NCBI RefSeq assembly: GCF_007556815.1
Contig: NZ_CP041745.1
Span: 3,759,001-3,823,000 of the forward strand
Reading direction: 5' to 3'
DNA: 64,000 nt
Source of the DNA: Paraburkholderia megapolitana
GTDB lineage: Bacteria; Pseudomonadota; Gammaproteobacteria; Burkholderiales; Burkholderiaceae
The notes under the pieces were generated by a model. The model ran no database searches, was not told where the DNA came from, and saw nothing but the letters and a program-made list of their open reading frames with translations. The position numbers and the translations under genes are program-made. Of the stretch, positions 997 to 10,084 are shown one piece after another (the first letter of the stretch is position 1; each line of letters begins with the position of its first letter).

Positions 997-1308
997 CTAG
1001 ATAGACATCTGGACCAGGAAGTACACCAGGGTCGCCGCGCAGGTGGTGAGCACCAGTCCAATGCTTGTTGCAAACGTGACGACAGCCACCACCGAGATAG
1101 CGGCGATGGCTGCAACAGGCGCGGTGTGGATCTCGGTCCACGCGATGTACACCGCGAAGTTAAGAAATACAGCCATGGGTATTACCCGCTCGAGCAAGCT
1201 GTGTGCTGTGTCGTTCAGGCGCAGTCGAACGAACACGGGCAACACGCGCACGATCAGACTGGTGGCAAACAACGCCAAAATTGCCATGGCGTGCGAAGAA
1301 ACGCTCAT
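997..1308 (-). CDS. azlD: AzlD-type small subunit of amino-acid exporter
   Basis: This is a 103-residue, very hydrophobic protein with about four membrane segments, matching the size and character of AzlD. That protein is the small partner of the AzlC/AzlD exporter known for branched-chain amino acids and their analogues. The start is the ATG at 1308, which overlaps the azlC stop as ATGA; this coupling is why I reject the longer upstream reading. It is the last gene of the five-gene minus-strand operon that begins with the TVGG-repeat peptide. The context suggests that the exported compound is a product of the preceding enzymes rather than plain leucine or isoleucine (inference). Confidence 0.85.
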   Translation of the reverse strand: MSVSSHAMAILALFATSLIVRVLPVFVRLRLNDTAHSLLERVIPMAVFLNFAVYIAWTEIHTAPVAAIAAISVVAVVTFATSIGLVLTTCAATLVYFLVQMSI

Positions 1309-2021
1309 GCGCCAGCCCTCCACAGCCGCCACGTGCTGAAACAGATGCTTGGGAGCCAGAACCAGACCCGGCCTAACGTCCAGAACAGCACCAGCGCGAC
1401 CGCAACGCACAGACTGATTTCCGCGAGGCAGCGAAACCAGGGTGCCGTGATCTTTGGAACCCGAACCTTCATTTGACCAAAGGACAACACCAGCAACACA
1501 ACGCTAGCTGGAAACCCAAGATTCACTCCTTCACCAAGAAGACTGCGCGGAACCAGGCCAGCCACAAACCAGCCAGCGACGGTAGACAGGACCCATGTAC
1601 CGTAAATCGTCATGCGGATGACGAGAATGGAACTCTTCGGATCGCGCTCGTGCTCCAGCGCGTAAGCCTCGTCACCCAGTAGATGGGCAACGAAGGCGCG
1701 TTGCCCTGGAGCACGCGGCAAGCGCGACGCTGTGGCAAAGGCGATGGGTATGTATCGGCTATTGATCGAAACGGCCATCAGCAACATGGTCAGAATACCC
1801 AGTCCCTGATCTGCAAGCGGCAGCAGTGCGAACTGCCCACTCCCCGAGAATCCGAGCGCGCTGAAGAGAAAGACATCGAATGCGCTCCAGTTTGCCTGCG
1901 CAGCCAGCACACCAAAAAGCATGCAGATGGGGAGAATCGCTACCGCCGTAGGGACCGCCCGGACGAACGCCGGCCACATACCAACCGGCGCGACCGGTGA
2001 GGGATGCGTTTGCGTCGTCAT
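1305..2021 (-). CDS. azlC: AzlC-type large subunit of amino-acid exporter
   Basis: The 238-residue membrane protein shows the AzlC pattern: an early helix with GFSGSGQFALLPL, then LMAVSINSRYIPIA and a HLLGDEAYAL segment, with several further helices. AzlC and AzlD together export branched-chain amino acids and analogues such as azaleucine in characterised bacteria. The start codon at 2021 overlaps the stop of the dioxygenase gene as ATGA, and the stop overlaps the azlD start in the same way, so dioxygenase, azlC and azlD are probably translationally coupled. That coupling is the main reason to link export to the hydroxylase reaction. Confidence 0.88.
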   Translation of the reverse strand: MTTQTHPSPVAPVGMWPAFVRAVPTAVAILPICMLFGVLAAQANWSAFDVFLFSALGFSGSGQFALLPLADQGLGILTMLLMAVSINSRYIPIAFATASRLPRAPGQRAFVAHLLGDEAYALEHERDPKSSILVIRMTIYGTWVLSTVAGWFVAGLVPRSLLGEGVNLGFPASVVLLVLSFGQMKVRVPKITAPWFRCLAEISLCVAVALVLFWTLGRVWFWLPSICFSTWRLWRAGA

Positions 2022-2770
2022 GCGATTGCTTCTGTGGATAGCGTGGCCTCGCGAGCACGGCGCTCATGCGCGGGGCCATACGCACGTTTGTGCCAACGAT
2101 TGATCTCGATGACCCAGATGTCGCGATGCCCGAGCGTCCCTTGATCGGGAACGATATCGGTTGCGTAATGGATGTAGCGTTCATCGTCGATCAATATGGC
2201 CTGGTTCTCAGCGAGGATCTGACGATAAAGAACCTCACGCGACAATGGGTCGATGATTTGAGTTTCTCCGCCCACTACGTTGTGGCGCCCTGCGATAGCG
2301 ATCACGCTAAATTCGTGACCGTCGCGATGCGGCCCTTCGGGTACCGTGACGCCTTTGAATTCCGCGTTTGCTATCACCCGGATCTGATTGACGTTGAGGT
2401 GGTAGCTCTCGTTTCTGTCGACCGGCAAGACTTCGAGCACCGCGGACATCAAGGAAGAAGGATCGCATTCAAGCTGCTCGCGATGGCGCATTACGCCGCC
2501 AGCTTCGGCCAGCCGGATGTATTCGGCCGACTGGATGTACTTGCGTTGCGGCAGCAGCGCGAAGATCCATTGCCCCTCCTCCCGGTAGCCAAAGTACTGT
2601 GACAGGCGAATCTCGCGCAGTCGCTTCAGGCTATGTCCGTCTCGCGGCATATTGTCGAAGGACTCTAGTACCTGTTCCGACAGCGGCGGCGTATCGACGA
2701 CGGCATAGCCGTGGGTTTTGAAGTGGTCCGCACCGGTGACCGATGTATGTTCAAGGAAGTGTGTTTCCAT
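2018..2770 (-). CDS. 2-oxoglutarate/Fe(II) dioxygenase of the free amino-acid hydroxylase type
   Basis: This 250-residue protein carries the facial-triad pattern of a 2OG-Fe(II) oxygenase: HRD at residues 148-150 (GPHRDGHEF) and a distal His near 201 (ERYIHYATD). Size and motif spacing resemble the 2OG-Fe dioxygenase family that includes L-isoleucine 4-hydroxylase (I recall this as PF10014; not searched). Known members hydroxylate free aliphatic amino acids in the cytoplasm using oxygen and 2-oxoglutarate. The gene starts 20 bases after the radical SAM gene and ends in an ATGA overlap with azlC. Its substrate here could be a free branched amino acid, or Val/Thr residues made available from the repeat peptide; the sequence does not decide. 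Confidence 0.82.
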   Translation of the reverse strand: METHFLEHTSVTGADHFKTHGYAVVDTPPLSEQVLESFDNMPRDGHSLKRLREIRLSQYFGYREEGQWIFALLPQRKYIQSAEYIRLAEAGGVMRHREQLECDPSSLMSAVLEVLPVDRNESYHLNVNQIRVIANAEFKGVTVPEGPHRDGHEFSVIAIAGRHNVVGGETQIIDPLSREVLYRQILAENQAILIDDERYIHYATDIVPDQGTLGHRDIWVIEINRWHKRAYGPAHERRAREATLSTEAIA

Positions 2771-2790
2771 CGCGTGGTCTCTCTAATTGG

Positions 2791-4275
2791 TCAGGATGCC
2801 TGCAAGTCGAAGGTAGCAATTTCGAAAGGCTTCAGGGCTTCGATGTGCCTGCGCGTAATGCCACGGTAGAAATTGCAGGCCGATGGTTCGACGACGTCGA
2901 TGGCGCCATATTTCTTTTCGAGTGGGCCAAGACAAAGGCCGGCGCAGAAGCCCTCGATTTCGCATCCCCGACAGAAGTCCGGATTCTCGTGGCGTAGTTT
3001 GGCGTGCTCGACATAGGCGGGCGCATCGAGAAGGCCCGGACCCTGCTCAATCGAACCCAGTATGGTTGATCCCGCCTTGCAGGCGAAAACCGAGCCGTTT
3101 GGCTCGATGCTGAACTGCGCACCTTTGGCTGAGCAGTTCTTGAAACCGCGTTCGGAGACCGCGTCGTGGCCAAGCAACACCTGGAATATCTGATGCCAAT
3201 AGCCGGTCAAAACCACGCCGCGTTGTCGTCCGTACTCGACGACGCGCCACAGGCGATCGACAATGTTCTGTGCGCCGTAACGAGCGTAGAAGCTCGGATC
3301 AAAATCAACAACGACCCCGATCTCGCCTGCGCTCACATCGACGGCGAGGTCAACGATTGACTCGTCAAAATCGTTCCAGGTAGCCGATGTCAAGGCTGCG
3401 TTGATGGCAATACGGTTGCCTTTCGCCTGCAGACGTCGCAAGCCCTGCATGACCACCGGTGTGCTGTCTTCACCGTTCTTTAGTGGTCGACTTGGGCTCG
3501 TAGGTGAATCAAAGCTAACGCAAACCGCGACACGATGTCTTGCGAAAGTTTCGGCCACTTCGTCGGTGATCAGCGAACCATTCGTCACGGTTGAGTAGGC
3601 GATATGCATGTCATCGCGCTCACCATTGCCAAAGCGCTCAAGGACAGCTGCAATGGCCTTCCAGTTCAGCAGTGGCTCGCCTCCAAAGAACTGAATCATC
3701 ACACTTTGCACGCCCGACGAGCGTGAAGCCGCAAGAGCTTTTTCGACGTAGTGCACCGCATCGTGCGGCTTCATGTGCCTGTTCTTAGGATCGTATTGGT
3801 GTTCGAAGCGCTCCCTGGAGGCATACATCGAATCGTTGATATCGATCTTGATTTCATCCCGGGCTTTCAGCCGGCTAAGATCGACCTTGGCGACCTCAGC
3901 CTCTACCGACATCTCTTTTCCTTGAATGCCTTCGAAGCAATAAGTGCATCCAAAATTGCAGGCATTCGCCAGGATGAGCTGGATGATGTTGACCTTCTTC
4001 TCGACTTCGGTGGGCACAGATTGCTGCTGAGCCTCGTCGGTCACCAGGAAACCGCGCGCCAACAACTGCTGGACCAGTTCGGCCTCCCGGCAAGGAGGCT
4101 CACCATCAATCCATGATGCCGGCAGTACCCGACCTGCGCCGAATCCCTGCAGCACTTTATGCGCTGCATCGTCCAGCATGCATAGTCCGCCACGCTGGCG
4201 GTGATAAACGGCAGTGCGAGCATCTACAACGAGTTCAACAACGTCCGGGGACAAGGTATATCTATTGTTTGCCAT
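2791..4275 (-). CDS. Radical SAM/SPASM peptide maturase
   Basis: The 494-residue protein is a radical SAM enzyme with a C-terminal SPASM-type extension. Cys106, Cys110 and Cys113 (CNFGCTYC) are the CX3CX2C ligands of the SAM [4Fe-4S] cluster, and GGEPLLN (198-204) is the usual SAM-site motif. The C-terminal half has cysteines at about 381, 399, 435, 438, 444, 448 and 467, expected for auxiliary clusters. Residues 1-90 look like a small winged-helix recognition domain of the PqqD/RRE kind (low certainty). The ATG at 4275 was chosen because AAGAAGG lies 10 bases upstream and the preceding 18 codons read as leader-less noise. It follows the repeat-peptide gene directly, which is the standard arrangement of RiPP precursor and maturase. 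The reaction is unknown. Confidence 0.92.
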   Translation of the reverse strand: MANNRYTLSPDVVELVVDARTAVYHRQRGGLCMLDDAAHKVLQGFGAGRVLPASWIDGEPPCREAELVQQLLARGFLVTDEAQQQSVPTEVEKKVNIIQLILANACNFGCTYCFEGIQGKEMSVEAEVAKVDLSRLKARDEIKIDINDSMYASRERFEHQYDPKNRHMKPHDAVHYVEKALAASRSSGVQSVMIQFFGGEPLLNWKAIAAVLERFGNGERDDMHIAYSTVTNGSLITDEVAETFARHRVAVCVSFDSPTSPSRPLKNGEDSTPVVMQGLRRLQAKGNRIAINAALTSATWNDFDESIVDLAVDVSAGEIGVVVDFDPSFYARYGAQNIVDRLWRVVEYGRQRGVVLTGYWHQIFQVLLGHDAVSERGFKNCSAKGAQFSIEPNGSVFACKAGSTILGSIEQGPGLLDAPAYVEHAKLRHENPDFCRGCEIEGFCAGLCLGPLEKKYGAIDVVEPSACNFYRGITRRHIEALKPFEIATFDLQAS

Positions 4276-4319
4276 GCGCGTCAGACCTTCTTGCCTGGTT
4301 AGCGAGATACAGAAGTACA

Positions 4320-4350
4320 CGCGCCGCACGCGTTAAGCCTATGCGGCGCG
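4320..4350 (-). promoter_or_regulatory. Hairpin between precursor and maturase genes
   Basis: A perfect 9-bp GC stem (CGCGCCGCA at 4320-4328, TGCGGCGCG at 4342-4350) with a 13-base loop lies in the 83-base gap between the repeat-peptide stop and the radical SAM start. No T run follows on the minus strand. It could be an attenuator or mRNA-stability hairpin that lets the peptide be made in excess of the enzyme (inference from common RiPP operon design). Confidence 0.5.
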
Positions 4351-4358
4351 CGCAGGCC

Positions 4359-4556
4359 TTATTTGCTCAGACGGGTCTTGAGCAGCGTACGCTGCCCGCT
4401 GGACAGCGTGCCGCCCACGGTCCCGCCTACCGTACCACCCACGGTGCCACCGACAGTCCCACCAACCGTTCCACCTACAGTGCCGCCGACGGTCCCACCT
4501 ACTGTTCCGCCGACAGTCCCACCCACGGTGGAGATACTCAAAAAGTTGTCTTGCAT
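4359..4556 (-). CDS. TVGG-repeat peptide, putative RiPP precursor
   Basis: The 65-residue product consists of a 9-residue start (MQDNFLSIS), ten perfect tandem TVGG units, and a basic 16-residue tail (TLSSGQ, then RTLLKTRLSK). It has no cysteine and only one aromatic residue, Phe5, which lies outside the repeats. The ATG at 4556 has a weak ACGGGG ribosome site. An in-frame GTG at 4706 would add 50 residues but has no ribosome site, so I reject it. The gene is first in the minus-strand operon, directly before the radical SAM gene, so I call it the maturase substrate. With only nine residues before the repeats, recognition may use the C-terminal tail instead of a leader (inference). I recognise no described family. 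Confidence 0.78.
   Translation of the reverse strand: MQDNFLSISTVGGTVGGTVGGTVGGTVGGTVGGTVGGTVGGTVGGTVGGTLSSGQRTLLKTRLSK
4410..4529 (-). repeat. Ten 12-bp tandem units encoding TVGG, diversified only at wobble bases
   Basis: Ten consecutive 12-base units fill 4410-4529. Counted by eye, all 80 non-wobble bases are invariant, while the 40 wobble bases use all four nucleotides (14 G, 11 A, 9 C, 6 T on the plus strand), and no two of the ten units are identical. The array is therefore not a recent slippage product; the protein repeat has been kept while the DNA drifted. The antisense frame would read PPTV with the same wobble positions, so this pattern alone does not fix the strand. Confidence 0.95.
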
Positions 4557-5043
4557 GGAAATACCCCGTTGTGTTGAACATGGGCCAATGTCTGGCCCGC
4601 TGAATGCATCCGTTAGATCGGATACAAACTCTGGTTCGCGATGACTGGTAGCCAGGGGACGCAACGGGTAGTCGTGAACGCACGTGTCGTGCTCGTAACA
4701 AGACACTCTATTTGTACGCTACCGACGGGAGAGCCATGACGTTGTGTGTCGGTGGCACGTTGCCCGAGTCGGCGATAGTTTTGATCGTTCGTATGATTGG
4801 CACGCTATCACACGCTTTTTCTCTCGAGCAATGCAGTAGTTAATATTCCGTATATTTCACAAAAGTTAGCAACTCTTGAATTAGATCGCGGTTAGCATCG
4901 CTCTGTCGAAGCGTTCTCCGATATATCAATGGAACAGGGAAATTCTGACAGGCACTGCCGGAGACACTCAATAAAGAGCTTGAAACAAGCACAACATGAC
5001 GGCGTCCTGGCGCCCAACCGGCCCAATCGAATGCCAACCACAT
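4557..5043. other. AT-rich intergenic region upstream of the repeat-peptide operon
   Basis: No gene is supported in these 487 bases. The stretch is clearly AT-richer than its surroundings (24 G or C in the 60 bases from 4801). It must hold the promoter of the five-gene minus-strand operon, but I could not find a convincing -35/-10 pair at proper spacing. There is no transposase remnant or repeat of the tRNA 3' end here. Confidence 0.6.
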
Positions 5044-6342
5044 TCATCCCCCCACCAGTTGAACCAGCAACACCCCATTCAACACCAGCACTACCAGCGT
5101 TCCCAACACCGCACCGAGCGTCGTCACCCTACGGTTCCTGTGGCGTCCCATCAGATCGCCGCGCGACGTAAACCACACCAGCGCGATCATCGGCACCGGC
5201 AACGCGATACTCAACATCACCTGGCTCAATACCAGCGCACGGGTCGCATCGACCCCGCATGCCACGACGACAAACGCCGGCGCCATCGTAACCAGCCGCC
5301 GCACCCACACGGGAATGCGAAAACCAACAAAGCCCTGCATGATCATCTGACCGGCCATCGTACCGACCACCGAACTCGAGATACCCGATGCGATCAACGC
5401 CGCCAGAAACAGACCTGCTGCCGCCCCACCAAGCAACGGCGTCAACGTACGCCATGCGGTTTCGATACTGGCGATATCCGCGTGTCCGAAGTGAAATGCG
5501 CTCGACGCCATGATCACCATCGCCATGTTGATCAGCCCCGCGATACCGAGCGCAACCACGACTTCGAGATTCGAAAACGCGAGCAGCTTCGAGCATTCGC
5601 GATCAGTGCGCGGTCTCACGCGGTTTTGCGTCAACCCCGAATGCAGGAACAACACGTGCGGCATGACCGTCGCACCGATAATGCCGACGGAAATCGTCAA
5701 TGCATTACTGTCCGGGATGCGCGGCGTGAACGTGTGTACCACCACGGACGGCCAGTGCACCGGCGCGATCAGCAGTTCCGCGAGATACGACAGACCAATC
5801 ACACCGACAAGTGCCGCAATCACCAGCTCCAGTGGCCGAAAACCGAGCTTCTCGAATTGCAGCAGACCATAGGTGACGGCGGCGGTGATCAACATGCTGG
5901 GGATCATCGGCAGATGCAGCAATAGCGACACGCCGATCGCCCCACCTACAAACTCAGCGAGGTCTGTCGCCATCGCGGCGATTTCGCTCATCCCCCACAT
6001 CGCGATCACCCAACGGCGTGGCAACGATTCGCGGCATAACTCCGCCAGGTTGCGTCCCGTGACAAGTCCGAGTTTTGCAGACAACGACTGGAACAGCATC
6101 GCCACGATGTTGGCGAGCGCCACCACCCACAGCAGCGTATAGCCATAGCCCGCACCTGCCTGAATGTTGGTCGCGAAGTTGCCGGGGTCCATATAAGCGA
6201 TGGACGCAACCACCGCAGGCCCCACAAATGGCAGCACCGCACGCGCGCCACGCCGGCGCCCTGCGAGAGTTTCGCGGATATCGAAACAGGCCTGCTCGGT
6301 CAGCGTCTGCGGAACGATCGCTTCGCTCATCACTTCGTCCAT
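5044..6342 (-). CDS. mntH: Nramp-family manganese/divalent metal transporter
   Basis: The 432-residue protein is an inner-membrane Nramp carrier that imports Mn2+ (or Fe2+) with protons. The first membrane helix carries the metal-binding DPGNFATN motif (about residues 52-59), and helix 6 carries MPHVLFLHS, where the His and Met shape metal binding. Around eleven hydrophobic segments are present, the expected fold and length. A second ATG four codons downstream (6330) is an alternative start, and neither has a strong ribosome site. The gene stands alone, 101 bases from the convergent-side neighbour, and no MntR box was identified. Confidence 0.92.
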   Translation of the reverse strand: MDEVMSEAIVPQTLTEQACFDIRETLAGRRRGARAVLPFVGPAVVASIAYMDPGNFATNIQAGAGYGYTLLWVVALANIVAMLFQSLSAKLGLVTGRNLAELCRESLPRRWVIAMWGMSEIAAMATDLAEFVGGAIGVSLLLHLPMIPSMLITAAVTYGLLQFEKLGFRPLELVIAALVGVIGLSYLAELLIAPVHWPSVVVHTFTPRIPDSNALTISVGIIGATVMPHVLFLHSGLTQNRVRPRTDRECSKLLAFSNLEVVVALGIAGLINMAMVIMASSAFHFGHADIASIETAWRTLTPLLGGAAAGLFLAALIASGISSSVVGTMAGQMIMQGFVGFRIPVWVRRLVTMAPAFVVVACGVDATRALVLSQVMLSIALPVPMIALVWFTSRGDLMGRHRNRRVTTLGAVLGTLVVLVLNGVLLVQLVGG

Positions 6343-6442
6343 GACGACTCCAGTACGGTGTCACGATTGCCTTACCCGGTGCAACAACTGAAGCCCGCAA
6401 CGCACTAGCGATAATGCGTGGCGGGTCCTGTGCACGCGTCGT

Positions 6443-7420
6443 TCAGGCGCTCATGTTGAGCGTGCCGTTCACACCGCTTGGGAAGAAACCGCCCTTCATC
6501 GCCGCGGTGCTCGTCAGGTACACGATATTGAGCACGTTGCCGTAGCCGCGGCTGTAGGCAAGTCCGTTGCTGTCGAGCGGCACGATGTTGGAGGTGCCCG
6601 GTGTGCTGCCGGAGATGCCCTGATCGTCGTTGCCGACCTGATCGAGACTCGCGCGCGCGGCCGAGATCGCGTTAGCCGCACTGATCAGGCTCGTCATGTC
6701 GATGCCTTTCGAGTACAGCACCGTCCGCACGAGGCCGGCGTGATACGCCTCCGCAGCGAGAATGCCAGCGGCCGCTTCGAGGAAGGTCTTGTTGCTGATC
6801 AGAGGCGATGCACCCTTATAAGCTGTGACACCGACATCCTCGAAGATGAACGCGCCGAGCAGGAAATTGTTGTCGCTCGCATACGGATTGAATGCGGTGC
6901 CCGAGGCAACGAGTCCGGCAGCACGCGCAGCAACCGAGAACGCACCATTCGGATCGGTACCGCCGATATCGATCGCGGGCTGCGCGACCGCGGCCGATCC
7001 GAGCGCGCTGCGCAGGAACGTTACGTGCTCGCGTTCGTCTTTGGCGATTTCGTTTGCATACGCCTGTACCACCGGATCCTGGAACGGTACCTGCTGCCCC
7101 GGAATCACCGCACCCGGCGTGCCGACGCCAGTAGTCATACCTGCGGGCAAACCGCTGCCCGTAGTCGCATACGAGTAGAACTGCGATTCGAGGTATTCGA
7201 GATTCAATGCGAAGTTGAGAATTTCCGCATCGGTCGGTGCCGCCGCTGCGGATGCGATCGTTCCAGAGCCGCCCCCACACGCGCTAATGAGCGTACCGCC
7301 CACCAGCCCCAGGCCAAGGCCGCCTGCGTTTCTGAAAAACTGCCGGCGCTGCAAACGCCGCTCGACACGGCGGTCAAACACATCGATAAGCGCTGCTGAA
7401 TCGGTTTTGACATCGGACAT
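6443..7420 (-). CDS. Exported ferritin-like (desiccation-type) protein
   Basis: The 325-residue protein begins with a Tat-like export signal (RRQFFRNAGGLGLGLVGG) that ends in a lipobox-like ISACGGG, so it is probably exported and perhaps lipid-anchored. The mature part starts with ILNFALNLEYLESQFYSYA and contains NEIAKDEREHVTFLRSALG and AAEAYHAGLVRT, the Glu/His helix pattern of ferritin-like four-helix bundles. Bacterial relatives are annotated as ferritin-like or desiccation-related proteins; iron storage is not proven for them. The start is the ATG at 7420, seven bases after GGAG. It is divergent from the fasciclin gene. Confidence 0.85.
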   Translation of the reverse strand: MSDVKTDSAALIDVFDRRVERRLQRRQFFRNAGGLGLGLVGGTLISACGGGSGTIASAAAAPTDAEILNFALNLEYLESQFYSYATTGSGLPAGMTTGVGTPGAVIPGQQVPFQDPVVQAYANEIAKDEREHVTFLRSALGSAAVAQPAIDIGGTDPNGAFSVAARAAGLVASGTAFNPYASDNNFLLGAFIFEDVGVTAYKGASPLISNKTFLEAAAGILAAEAYHAGLVRTVLYSKGIDMTSLISAANAISAARASLDQVGNDDQGISGSTPGTSNIVPLDSNGLAYSRGYGNVLNIVYLTSTAAMKGGFFPSGVNGTLNMSA

Positions 7421-7802
7421 GACCATGCTCCTCAGAGACTTCGCAAGGGATGCCGCGAAACTCACCATCACGACGCACGCGCGGAGGCAACAGGACAGCA
7501 AGCGCGATGCAATGACGCAAATCGCGGACGCAAAGACTCCCTCCCGTTCAGCGAAGAACGAAAACGTATCGCGCAGAGAAAGCGAGTCCTCAATCGACCT
7601 TACGAGTCGAGCGAACCGTTGGATGCAGTCTGCTGCAAAGAAATGATCAGGACGTCGATGGACTCTTAAGGGGCAGACTCTGTCGCACGCATCCGCAACT
7701 GCCTCGTGTTCTTTGTCGCCATCGATGAATCCAATCCTCCCCTCACGCCGTATATAAGTTCGACACAGCGCAATCGAGCGCTGCGCGCTGAGGAGACCCA
7801 TC
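7421..7802. other. Divergent promoter region, ferritin-like / fasciclin genes
   Basis: These 382 bases separate two divergent genes for exported proteins and must carry both promoters. I see no gene in it. No clear operator palindrome or strong sigma-70 match was found. Confidence 0.5.
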
Positions 7803-8357
7803 ATGAGAAGTACTGCCTTCGTTACCGCTGTCGCGCTGTCGATGGCTGCGAGCAGCGTATTTGCCGCGGGCCAGACCGTGATGGTCGGCGGTCAGGCCAT
7901 GTACCCCACCAAAGACATCGTCGACAACGCCGTCAATTCCGCCGATCACACGACGCTGGTCGCTGCGGTAAAGGCGGCCGGGCTCGTCGATACGCTAAAA
8001 AGCGCGGGGCCCTTTACGGTTTTCGCACCAACCAACGAAGCGTTTTCTGCGCTCCCGGCTGGAACCGTGGACAACCTCGTCAAACCCGAGAACAAGGCAA
8101 CGCTGACCAGCATCCTCACGTATCACGTGTTGCCGGGACGTTACGACTTTCGCAAGCTCGATCAGGCAATCAGGGAGGGAGGAGGCAAGGCCGAACTGAA
8201 GACCGTCAACGGCGAGACGCTAACGTTCGCCGAGAACGGTCCCCACAATATCGTCGTGATGGATGCGGTAGGACACACCGCCGACATTTCCACCTATGAC
8301 GTCTACCAGAGCAACGGGGTCATCATGGTGGTCGACAAGGTGCTGATGCCAAAGTGA
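7803..8357 (+). CDS. Secreted fasciclin (FAS1) domain protein
   Basis: The 184-residue protein has a classical signal peptide (MRSTAFVTAVALSMAASSVFA, cleavage after about residue 21) and a single FAS1 domain. The conserved FAS1 blocks are visible: GPFTVFAPTNEAFSALP near residues 68-84, LTYHVLPGRY near 100, and the closing GVIMVVDKVLMPK. FAS1 domains mediate adhesion or cell-surface contact, and in bacteria their partner is often unknown. GAGGAG lies upstream of the ATG. The divergent ferritin-like gene suggests joint involvement in an envelope stress function (inference). Confidence 0.93.
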   Translation: MRSTAFVTAVALSMAASSVFAAGQTVMVGGQAMYPTKDIVDNAVNSADHTTLVAAVKAAGLVDTLKSAGPFTVFAPTNEAFSALPAGTVDNLVKPENKATLTSILTYHVLPGRYDFRKLDQAIREGGGKAELKTVNGETLTFAENGPHNIVVMDAVGHTADISTYDVYQSNGVIMVVDKVLMPK

Positions 8358-8400
8358 ACGGTGCTGCCGGTCGACCCACGGTGTTAGTGAGTCAAGTCGA

Positions 8401-9015
8401 CTAATCCTTCGACGGACCGGCACGCTTCCACTTCTCGAGCGCACTCACCCCCGGCACCGGCTCAAAACTCATCAACGCCTTCTCCATATCCGCACCATGC
8501 GCGTTCTCCCAGTCGCCCAGCAACTGCGCCGTCTTATGCAGATCCTCACCATAGAACCGATGAGAGAAGATCAGCGCATAGCCAACCCCATCCATCAGCA
8601 CGAAGCGCGTAAAGACACCTTCGACCACACCCGGTGCCGCCATCATCGACGCGATGAAATGCTCGGCGGGACGATCCGGTGTCCTTGGAACGGAGCGTGT
8701 CTTCAGCACCGCGCCTTTCGCTTTAGTAGAGTCGAGCAACGAGTTCGCGGCGCTCGCAAGATCATCCGCGGTCTTGACGCCGCGATAGATAACGACCGAC
8801 ACCATGTCGCTCCACGTGTCGAGATTCGTCTGCCCCGGCGGCGTGAATTCGAACAGCGTGTCGTCGCTCCAGCGGAAGAAGTAATCCGCCCCGTTGAAGC
8901 GAAACGCAGATCGCTCAGCCGTTTGCGCAGCAACAAAACGAAAATGCGCCGTCGATACCAGCGCAATACCACCGACGATCAACCGCCGCCGCTTGAGCAT
9001 CAAGGTCTGCTGCAT
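8401..9015 (-). CDS. Exported protein of unknown function
   Basis: The 204-residue protein starts with a basic, twin-arginine-containing leader (KRRRLIVGGIALVSTAHF) that ends near FVAAQ, so it is probably exported. The mature part (FRFNGADYFFRWSDDTLFEFTPPG) has no motif I recognise, no cysteines and no further membrane segment. The start is the ATG at 9015; the longer upstream reading is arginine/serine-rich and unlike protein. It lies 43 bases from the convergent fasciclin gene. I do not assign a function. Confidence 0.7.
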   Translation of the reverse strand: MQQTLMLKRRRLIVGGIALVSTAHFRFVAAQTAERSAFRFNGADYFFRWSDDTLFEFTPPGQTNLDTWSDMVSVVIYRGVKTADDLASAANSLLDSTKAKGAVLKTRSVPRTPDRPAEHFIASMMAAPGVVEGVFTRFVLMDGVGYALIFSHRFYGEDLHKTAQLLGDWENAHGADMEKALMSFEPVPGVSALEKWKRAGPSKD

Positions 9016-9106
9016 GATCGCCTCTCCATGTTTAAACGACAAAACGCCAGCCTCACGATCTGATTGAATCAGTTCGCGAGACTGGCGAGTGACTGCCTGC
9101 AACCGC

Positions 9107-10084
9107 CTAGTTCTGGATGAACGTATTGAGTGACGAGCACAGGAAACCCGTGCATCCGGTCGCGAGGAAGTACAGCGCCGCTGGCGTCGAACCGAACGCG
9201 AGCTCACCGAGATACGCTTCGCTCTGCGCACCCTGCGCATTCGCCTGCTGGATGAATGCAGTGCTGGTTGGCTGCGGAGTCTGCGACAGGTAGGTGAAGG
9301 TCGGTGATTGCGTCTGGTCCTTCACGTAGACCGCCACCGAGTCAGTACCGAAACCTAGGGGTCCCTTGAAGCGGTAACCCTTCGCGCCTTCATTGTTAGC
9401 CTGTGTGACGAAGTCGCCGACGCCCTGCGCTGGCGCCACGGCATCGTACGCGTACTTCGAAGCCGACGAGTTGTCCTTCATGTAGAGCGAGGTGTTCGCC
9501 GAGTCGAGTTGAACCGGACCGTAGTACCAGTATCCGCTCTGACCTTGCGCGTTCGCCTGGGTCAGGAAAGCGGCCGAACTGGTCGGTGAGGCTGCCGCGG
9601 CATAGCTATACGTCGCGGACGAATTGCCCTGGTGACGATAGAGATTGCCAAGCGTCAGCGGGCCCTCGTAGCGGAAGCCCTTTGCGCCCTCCTGGTTTGC
9701 CTGCGCGAGAAATCCCGCCTGCGTAGCGTCGGCGTTCTGGAACTCGTAGCTATACGTATTGGCACCGTCGTTGATGAAGACATTCATGGCGGTGGTCCCG
9801 CCATTGTCCGAAAAGCCCAGGTCGGCGATATAGCGGTAGCCCTTCGCACCTTCTGCATTCAACTGGGCAAGGACCGAGGTCGCATCGCTCGGAGCCGCCA
9901 GTGTTTCATACATCATCGTCCGTACGGACCCGCCGCCCGATGTCGGGCCAGTGCCGGAGCCGCCGGTTCCGGAGGTACCGCTCCCGGTGTGGCTGCTGTC
10001 TCCACCCGAACTGTCGCTGACGCCATCCCCTCCGCACGCGGCCAGTGCCAGACATGCTGCAATCACGACGATCTTTGGACTCAT
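9107..10084 (-). CDS. Repeat lipoprotein with five about 50-residue units
   Basis: The 325-residue protein has a lipoprotein signal (CLALAACGGD, lipidated Cys near residue 17), a Gly/Ser/Thr linker to about residue 53, and then five tandem units. Each unit begins with a variant of FLAQANQEGAKGFRY, at residues 71, 125, 173, 225 and 277, and ends in a pair of aromatic-rich strands such as YSYEF. The C-terminus has two cysteines (GCTGFLCSS). The fold is probably a repeated beta module on the outer membrane. I know no function for it; it stands alone with its own promoter region upstream. Confidence 0.8.
   Translation of the reverse strand: MSPKIVVIAACLALAACGGDGVSDSSGGDSSHTGSGTSGTGGSGTGPTSGGGSVRTMMYETLAAPSDATSVLAQLNAEGAKGYRYIADLGFSDNGGTTAMNVFINDGANTYSYEFQNADATQAGFLAQANQEGAKGFRYEGPLTLGNLYRHQGNSSATYSYAAAASPTSSAAFLTQANAQGQSGYWYYGPVQLDSANTSLYMKDNSSASKYAYDAVAPAQGVGDFVTQANNEGAKGYRFKGPLGFGTDSVAVYVKDQTQSPTFTYLSQTPQPTSTAFIQQANAQGAQSEAYLGELAFGSTPAALYFLATGCTGFLCSSLNTFIQN
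9110..9874 (-). repeat. Five tandem protein-level repeats in the lipoprotein
   Basis: Residues 71-325 are built from five units of 48 to 54 residues that share a Q-x-N-x-(E/Q)-G-(A/Q)-x-x-x-x-(Y/F) core, with an aromatic strand and an adjacent hydrophobic (A/G/V)-x-L-x-F-G piece. The last unit is the most diverged (SEAYLGELAFG). Confidence 0.8.

Follow-up and report, generated by a model that had tools for sequence, protein, structure and literature searches.

The subject of this analysis is a five-gene operon of Paraburkholderia megapolitana, tvgABCDE, which lies on the minus strand at positions 997-4556 of a 64,000-nucleotide stretch of contig NZ_CP041745.1 (this whole stretch is the window of the text below, and coordinates are positions within it). 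Its open reading frames (ORFs) follow one another in the order tvgA-tvgB-tvgC-tvgD-tvgE. We think it probable that the operon makes a free, unusual amino acid on a ribosomal peptide: valines of the precursor TvgA would be converted to cyclopropylglycine (CPG) by TvgB, host peptidases would free the CPG, TvgC would hydroxylate it, and TvgD and TvgE would export it. This proposal builds on direct observation of gene order, protein families, conservation of the repeat, orthology of TvgB and exchange of downstream modules in relatives.

The system itself has already been described. Kostenko et al. (2022; PMC9062424) gave the name tvgABCDE to a set comprising a precursor, a radical S-adenosylmethionine (SAM) enzyme, a putative dioxygenase and two membrane proteins. 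All its components – TVGG peptide, TvgB-type enzyme, TvgC, two membrane proteins – are present in the window operon, which is one more copy of that cluster; a first-pass annotation of this DNA, which had not recognized the combination as a described system, was mistaken on this point. In the passages of the 2022 paper that bear on the later steps, the authors expect TvgC to oxidize the peptide and TvgD/TvgE to hydrolyse and export it, and leave the product open. A review that repeats the system names no product in the passages concerned (PMC11002830). What we add is the evidence of swapped modules on the question of the product, the kinship of TvgC to HrmJ and BelL, and the AzlC/AzlD-like nature of TvgD and TvgE. 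The swapped modules suggest that TvgA is an expendable scaffold, on which a cyclopropyl amino acid is made and from which it is set free.

Precursor, maturase and oxygenase

The TvgB enzyme of Halomonas anticariensis converts the valines of TVGG units into CPG in vitro, as established by mass spectrometry, nuclear magnetic resonance and a synthetic standard (PMC9062424). According to the assay passages of that paper, the substrate was mainly a synthetic four-repeat peptide, which received up to three modifications, and threonine and glycine were excluded as sites. The first-pass annotation had taken the peptide for the substrate of the radical SAM enzyme, which the published orthologue bears out, and had supposed that Val or Thr residues may be modified: valine remains the likely target, threonine having been excluded for the orthologue.

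Window TvgB is 72% identical to the Halomonas enzyme (locus L014) over residues 6-494. Its length is counted from an ATG, an upstream GTG start at 4329 being open too. A profile made from 30 TvgB homologues matches structure 8vpo, titled TigE, at E 3.1e-129, and the same entry is the best structural match of the AlphaFold model (pLDDT 80.7). The motif GYWHQI is invariant in all 30 homologues; G358, Y359 and W360 align with the GYW of 8vpo, and GYW is kept in each of the 19 full relatives introduced below. According to the TigE work, this motif is a mark of cyclopropyl synthases, and its tyrosine reportedly serves as ligand of an auxiliary cluster. Pfam finds Radical_SAM (PF04055) above cut-off (E 5.2e-12) and SPASM (PF13186) slightly below it (19.0 versus 21.5 bits). 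Other known maturase families fit poorly: the 25 models listed among 60 matching NCBIfam models all stay far below their cut-offs, including the PapB-type ranthipeptide maturase (NF047865, 86.8 bits versus 340) and the GrrM/OscB maturase of Gly-rich repeats (TIGR04261, 42.4 versus 310). Window TvgB is predicted to be a CPG synthase acting on the valines of TvgA.

TvgA consists mainly of ten perfect TVGG units. In the 12-base units, the first and second codon positions are invariant, whereas 4, 4, 2 and 4 different bases occur at the third positions of the four codons; the DNA of every unit is distinct, and the mean difference, 2.89 of 12 positions, is close to the value of 3.0 that random bases at all four third positions would give. 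Fixed first and second positions together with nearly random third positions show that the repeat is no accident and that it reflects selection at the protein level, not recent duplication of DNA. The tail L-x3-L-[ST]-[KR] ends all 20 TvgA peptides of the window and its 19 full relatives, one of them having an extra residue after it. In 13 of these 20 the first repeat unit has isoleucine, later units having valine nearly throughout; the first unit of the window (4518-4529) has valine.

TvgC matches 2OG-Fe_Oxy_2 (PF10014) above cut-off (E 5.6e-31), a family whose members hydroxylate free leucine, isoleucine and threonine. Its closest solved relatives, HrmJ and BelL, are enzymes of free amino acids and share with it, at 36% identity, both the fold and the H-x-D...H metal-binding motif; H148-x-D150...H201 and R216 are invariant across 33 aligned sequences. 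The genome of P. megapolitana has a second PF10014 protein outside the window (L127, C3:2147253-2147831, E 4.4e-67).

As to the membrane pair, TvgD matches AzlC (PF03591) at E 1.9e-26, with 93.6 bits versus a Pfam cut-off of 32.1, and falls below the cut-off of the narrower NCBIfam azlC equivalog (28.9 versus 332). A TvgE homologue 47% identical to that of the window (P0256) carries AzlD (PF05437). AzlCD and LysE are, by family, amino-acid exporters. The layout given by the first-pass annotation, five minus-strand genes with intergenic gaps of 83 bases (tvgA-tvgB) and 20 bases (tvgB-tvgC), then ATGA overlaps at 2018-2021 (tvgC/tvgD) and 1305-1308 (tvgD/tvgE), agrees with the ORF coordinates. 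The features are collected in the table.

Features of the tvg operon, in window positions
Feature	Positions	Strand	Remarks
tvgA, precursor peptide	4359..4556	-	65 aa, ten TVGG units
Ten TVGG units of TvgA, residues 10-49	4410..4529	-	Predicted cyclopropylglycine sites, chemistry by orthology to PMC9062424
TvgA C-terminal tail motif L-x3-L-[ST]-[KR]	4362..4382	-	Present in 20/20 TvgA peptides
tvgB, predicted radical SAM/SPASM cyclopropylglycine synthase	2791..4275	-	494 aa; CxxxCxxC C106/C110/C113; GYWHQI 358-363
tvgC, Fe(II)/2-oxoglutarate oxygenase PF10014, HrmJ/BelL-like	2018..2770	-	250 aa; H148-x-D150...H201, R216
tvgD, AzlC-family permease	1305..2021	-	238 aa; Pfam AzlC match
tvgE, AzlD-like small membrane partner	997..1308	-	103 aa

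Exchange of downstream modules among relatives

A scan of species genomes gave 152 pattern matches and 105 relatives, from which 80 loci were kept. Counts refer to the full set of 19 loci (L008-L026; at least 62% identity), from Beta-, Gamma- and Alphaproteobacteria, L027-L032 being left out of them. These loci cannot be taken as independent of one another: L015 and L025 agree in TvgB at all 493 of 493 residues. The set includes L026, counted as present with its tvgB and tvgC frames broken. A further 55 loci (L033-L087) reach at most 33% identity, except for L070 (40% over about 60 residues) and L073 (34%); the pattern TGYWH has no match in L033 and L034, the two of them that were scanned.

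The TVGG peptide, TvgB and TvgC are each present in all 19 full relatives, and AzlC in 16, so that the co-occurrence check put forward by the first-pass annotation has a mixed outcome: peptide, maturase and dioxygenase always go together, the exporter only in part of the loci. A gene of the AraC-type regulator family (the assignment was scanned in L010 and L014) accompanies 13 of the 19, on the same strand before tvgA in 12 and after the operon in L022. AzlC is lacking in L018, L023 and L024, and it is what stands there instead, or is added elsewhere, that bears on the product.

In L023 (Massilia sp. Root335) and L024 (Pseudoduganella namucuonensis), where tblastn finds no match to azlC or azlD, tvgC is followed by a TauD-family oxygenase, a full-length threonine dehydratase and a nonribosomal peptide synthetase (NRPS). 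Together, tvgABC and this module make a hybrid cluster (L023 10249-15167; L089 and L090 in P. namucuonensis) joining a ribosomally synthesized and post-translationally modified peptide (RiPP) to an NRPS, of which we found no description in the literature searched. Further on, the Pseudoduganella contig carries HlyD-family, major facilitator superfamily (MFS) and thioesterase genes as well as, by reading of the ORF, an MbtH-like gene; a separate Massilia contig, starting inside an NRPS, carries HlyD-family, MFS and thioesterase genes as in Pseudoduganella. The threonine dehydratases of the two clusters are 90% identical to each other, and each genome has another copy at 68-70% to the query; the cluster enzyme is therefore an extra copy, which would fit either resistance to a branched-chain antimetabolite or a role in supply. 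The second adenylation domain of L089/L090 reads, by motif, D-A-F-W-A-G-G-T-F, one change away from a valine code: we take this as a lead, not as evidence. The code of the first domain is not known to match any described one.

Other variants keep the exporter or replace it differently. In L009 (Pseudomonas sp. URMO17WK12:I2), where azlC and an azlD-like gene are both present, tvgABCDE is directly followed (4855-8389) by a TauD-type oxygenase (54% identical to that of L024), an O-carbamoyltransferase and a LysE translocator. Among the solved relatives of the TauD-type oxygenase are clavaminate synthases and hydroxylases of asparagine, arginine and lysine. L018 (Rhizorhapis) has a second 2-oxoglutarate enzyme, WelO5-related, where azlC would stand, with HlyD and MFS genes upstream, divergent from tvgA and 27-28% identical to their L091 counterparts. 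In the distant L027 (Actinocrinis; 3518-9458), the genes for a GTIAGTIGG peptide and two maturases are immediately preceded by two ATP-grasp genes, one of L-amino-acid ligase type (LAL_C2). Outside these loci, L008-L032 contain no further gene for the oxygenase, the threonine dehydratase, the carbamoyltransferase or the ligase; LysE-like genes are also present in L020 and L027, at a distance. These modules differ in chemistry, yet amino-acid exporters, L-amino-acid ligases, NRPSs and O-carbamoyltransferases can all use a free, hydroxylated amino acid, which suggests a free product of CPG type. The NRPS module in two of the three relatives that lack AzlC likewise fits a small amino-acid product, and export of such a product by AzlCD, as the first-pass annotation had it, fits the evidence.

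Some further loci may be recorded for themselves. L028, L029 and L030 have two tandem maturase genes after short GTIG-type repeat peptides. L031 keeps the last third of tvgB only, with no match to tvgC, tvgD or tvgE. In L032 (7799-10195) the first part of tvgB has been joined by a deletion to the last part of tvgC, but a short TVGG peptide is still encoded and genes like azlC and azlD are still present. On a Streptomyces plasmid (L088, 7890-11286), the gene of a radical SAM enzyme with the GYW motif is next to genes for carbamoyltransferase, phytanoyl-CoA dioxygenase and MFS proteins. The annotated small genes read there showed no repeat peptide, and the locus was not used as evidence.

Free amino acid or peptide product

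According to the proposed pathway, TvgB would convert the valines of the ten TVGG units, as the published orthologue does; host peptidases would cut down the modified TvgA and free CPG, which TvgC would then hydroxylate, and the AzlC/AzlD-like pair would export the result. TvgA would be a consumable scaffold, each molecule of which could give some ten molecules of an unusual amino acid at most, and the product may act as an antimetabolite of branched-chain amino acids. The more general idea that TVG clusters are ribosomal amino-acid foundries, making hydroxy-CPG as an exported antimetabolite or, in Massilia and Pseudoduganella, as a building block of an NRPS that would thus receive its monomers from the ribosome, is a more tentative one, to which we would give a little less than an even chance.

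Several points weigh against this pathway. As the first-pass annotation noted, no peptidase gene lies within the five-gene operon, and release would then need an unnamed host enzyme. AzlC is lacking in three of the 19 relatives, and in L018 and L024 nearby HlyD/MFS transporter genes, of a family not tied to amino acids, take its place; such pumps say nothing either way on a free amino-acid product. The AzlD identity of window TvgE is weak: a Pfam scan gives it no match to PF05437, nor one to four of five scanned homologues, the fifth (L015) reaching E 0.011, below cut-off. The NRPS variant is represented by two loci, the carbamoyltransferase and ligase variants by one each, and the record of L009 is a 9-kb scaffold. 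TvgC is only 36% identical to HrmJ/BelL and 19% to IDO, structures 9dq0 and 8jms are near-identical in the aligned part and hence count as one witness rather than two, and a common fold is no proof of a common substrate. The isoleucine found in the first unit of most TvgA peptides is something that a pure dispenser of valine does not need. To these must be added the expectation of the discoverers themselves.

That expectation (Kostenko et al., 2022; PMC9062424), as worded in the passages cited above, is that TvgC oxidizes the intact CPG-containing peptide, and that TvgD and TvgE then cut it and export a peptide product. The five genes do make one tight unit, and TvgC accompanies TvgA and TvgB in 19 of 19 loci. 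However, neither TvgD nor TvgE has a peptidase domain in a Pfam scan, the closest characterized relatives of TvgC act on free amino acids, and in L023 and L024 an NRPS follows in place of AzlC, so that we hold this route to be unlikely. Slightly less probable again is a short peptide, Thr-CPG or a tetrapeptide of TVGG type, released by host proteases, oxidized by TvgC and exported. The almost exact conservation of the tetrad would speak for it, as threonine and both glycines could drift if only valine mattered; ATP-grasp or NRPS neighbours could extend a dipeptide as well, and the HlyD/MFS pumps near L018 and L024 might transport something other than amino acids. On the other hand, AzlCD and LysE belong to amino-acid exporter families, the tetrad may be kept merely for recognition by TvgB, and the spacers of distant relatives differ (GTIAGTIGG in L027, GTIGSVS in L029), GT[VI] being their only common part. 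TvgC might even act on another substrate such as free threonine or isoleucine, which PF10014 members do hydroxylate, the operon then joining two unrelated reactions; with TvgC in every full TvgB locus, and with its homologues of at least 53% identity standing apart in the alignment from a group at 33-42%, this seems very improbable.

If the free amino acid is indeed the product, repeat-peptide RiPPs can be a source of monomers for NRPSs, ligases and exporters of amino acids, and TvgB together with TvgC would offer a route to hydroxylated CPG, a building block of interest to chemists.

Genomic setting and kinship with known systems

Stretches of three kin genomes (L124-L126) follow the window colinearly as far as 918-921, shortly beyond a tRNA-Met gene (839-915), and again from 31590. 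The intervening lineage-specific segment of 30.7 kb (916-31589), which holds the tvg operon, mntH and, by reading of ORFs, a sugar ABC transporter set, is replaced there by 0.5-2.3 kb. No integrase was noticed in its ORF lists, no search aimed at integrases being made. The operon has a GC content of 57.4%, compared with 62.1% for the window and 60.2% and 59.5% for the flanking stretches, a weak signal. No close copy was found in 34 other genomes of the genus (six of them giving matches at E 3.5e-6 or weaker), nor in 24 genomes of the order, and a search of 398 others in that order gave none at E 1e-60. Replacement of the segment in kin, the lack of close copies in the kin searched and the GC content together fit horizontal gain of the operon. 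A plasmid was considered as carrier and rejected: the best-ranked tblastn match has 30% identity, and all 23 records lie below 60%.

In the open-licence literature searched, we found no paper combining radical SAM, AzlC and RiPP, and none that ties tvg to an NRPS or a free amino acid. The nearest system is tvgABCDE of Halomonas (Litchfieldella) anticariensis FP35 = DSM 16096 (L014), with the same five genes, TVGG repeat and layout. The two differ in their repeats, ten TVGG in the window, and one TIGG, ten TVGG and one TVSG in Halomonas. They also differ upstream, where Halomonas has AraC-type regulator genes and the window operon has mntH. TigB/TigE, the system of structure 8vpo, similarly pairs a repeat peptide with a radical SAM/SPASM enzyme bearing the GYW motif; its units are said to be TIGSVS, with isoleucine converted to methyl-CPG. 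A related locus, L029, has paired maturases and gives no tblastn match to TvgC, AzlC or AzlD.

In B. thuringiensis, the IDO operon unites, as tvg does, a PF10014 hydroxylase of free amino acids and an amino-acid exporter, and in Hil operons such a hydroxylase goes with an exporter that is specific to the bacterium. Unlike tvg, IDO and Hil have isoleucine and its derivative as substrates, no precursor peptide, no radical SAM enzyme and an exporter of a different family. The pathways served by HrmJ and BelL, for hormaomycin and belactosin, incorporate a cyclopropyl amino acid into a product of NRPS or ATP-grasp enzymes. There, however, the PF10014 enzymes close the ring themselves, on free 6-nitronorleucine supplied by BelK/HrmI, a type of partner that none of the five genes of the operon encodes (no search was made elsewhere in the genome), whereas in tvg it is TvgB that would make the ring, on the peptide.

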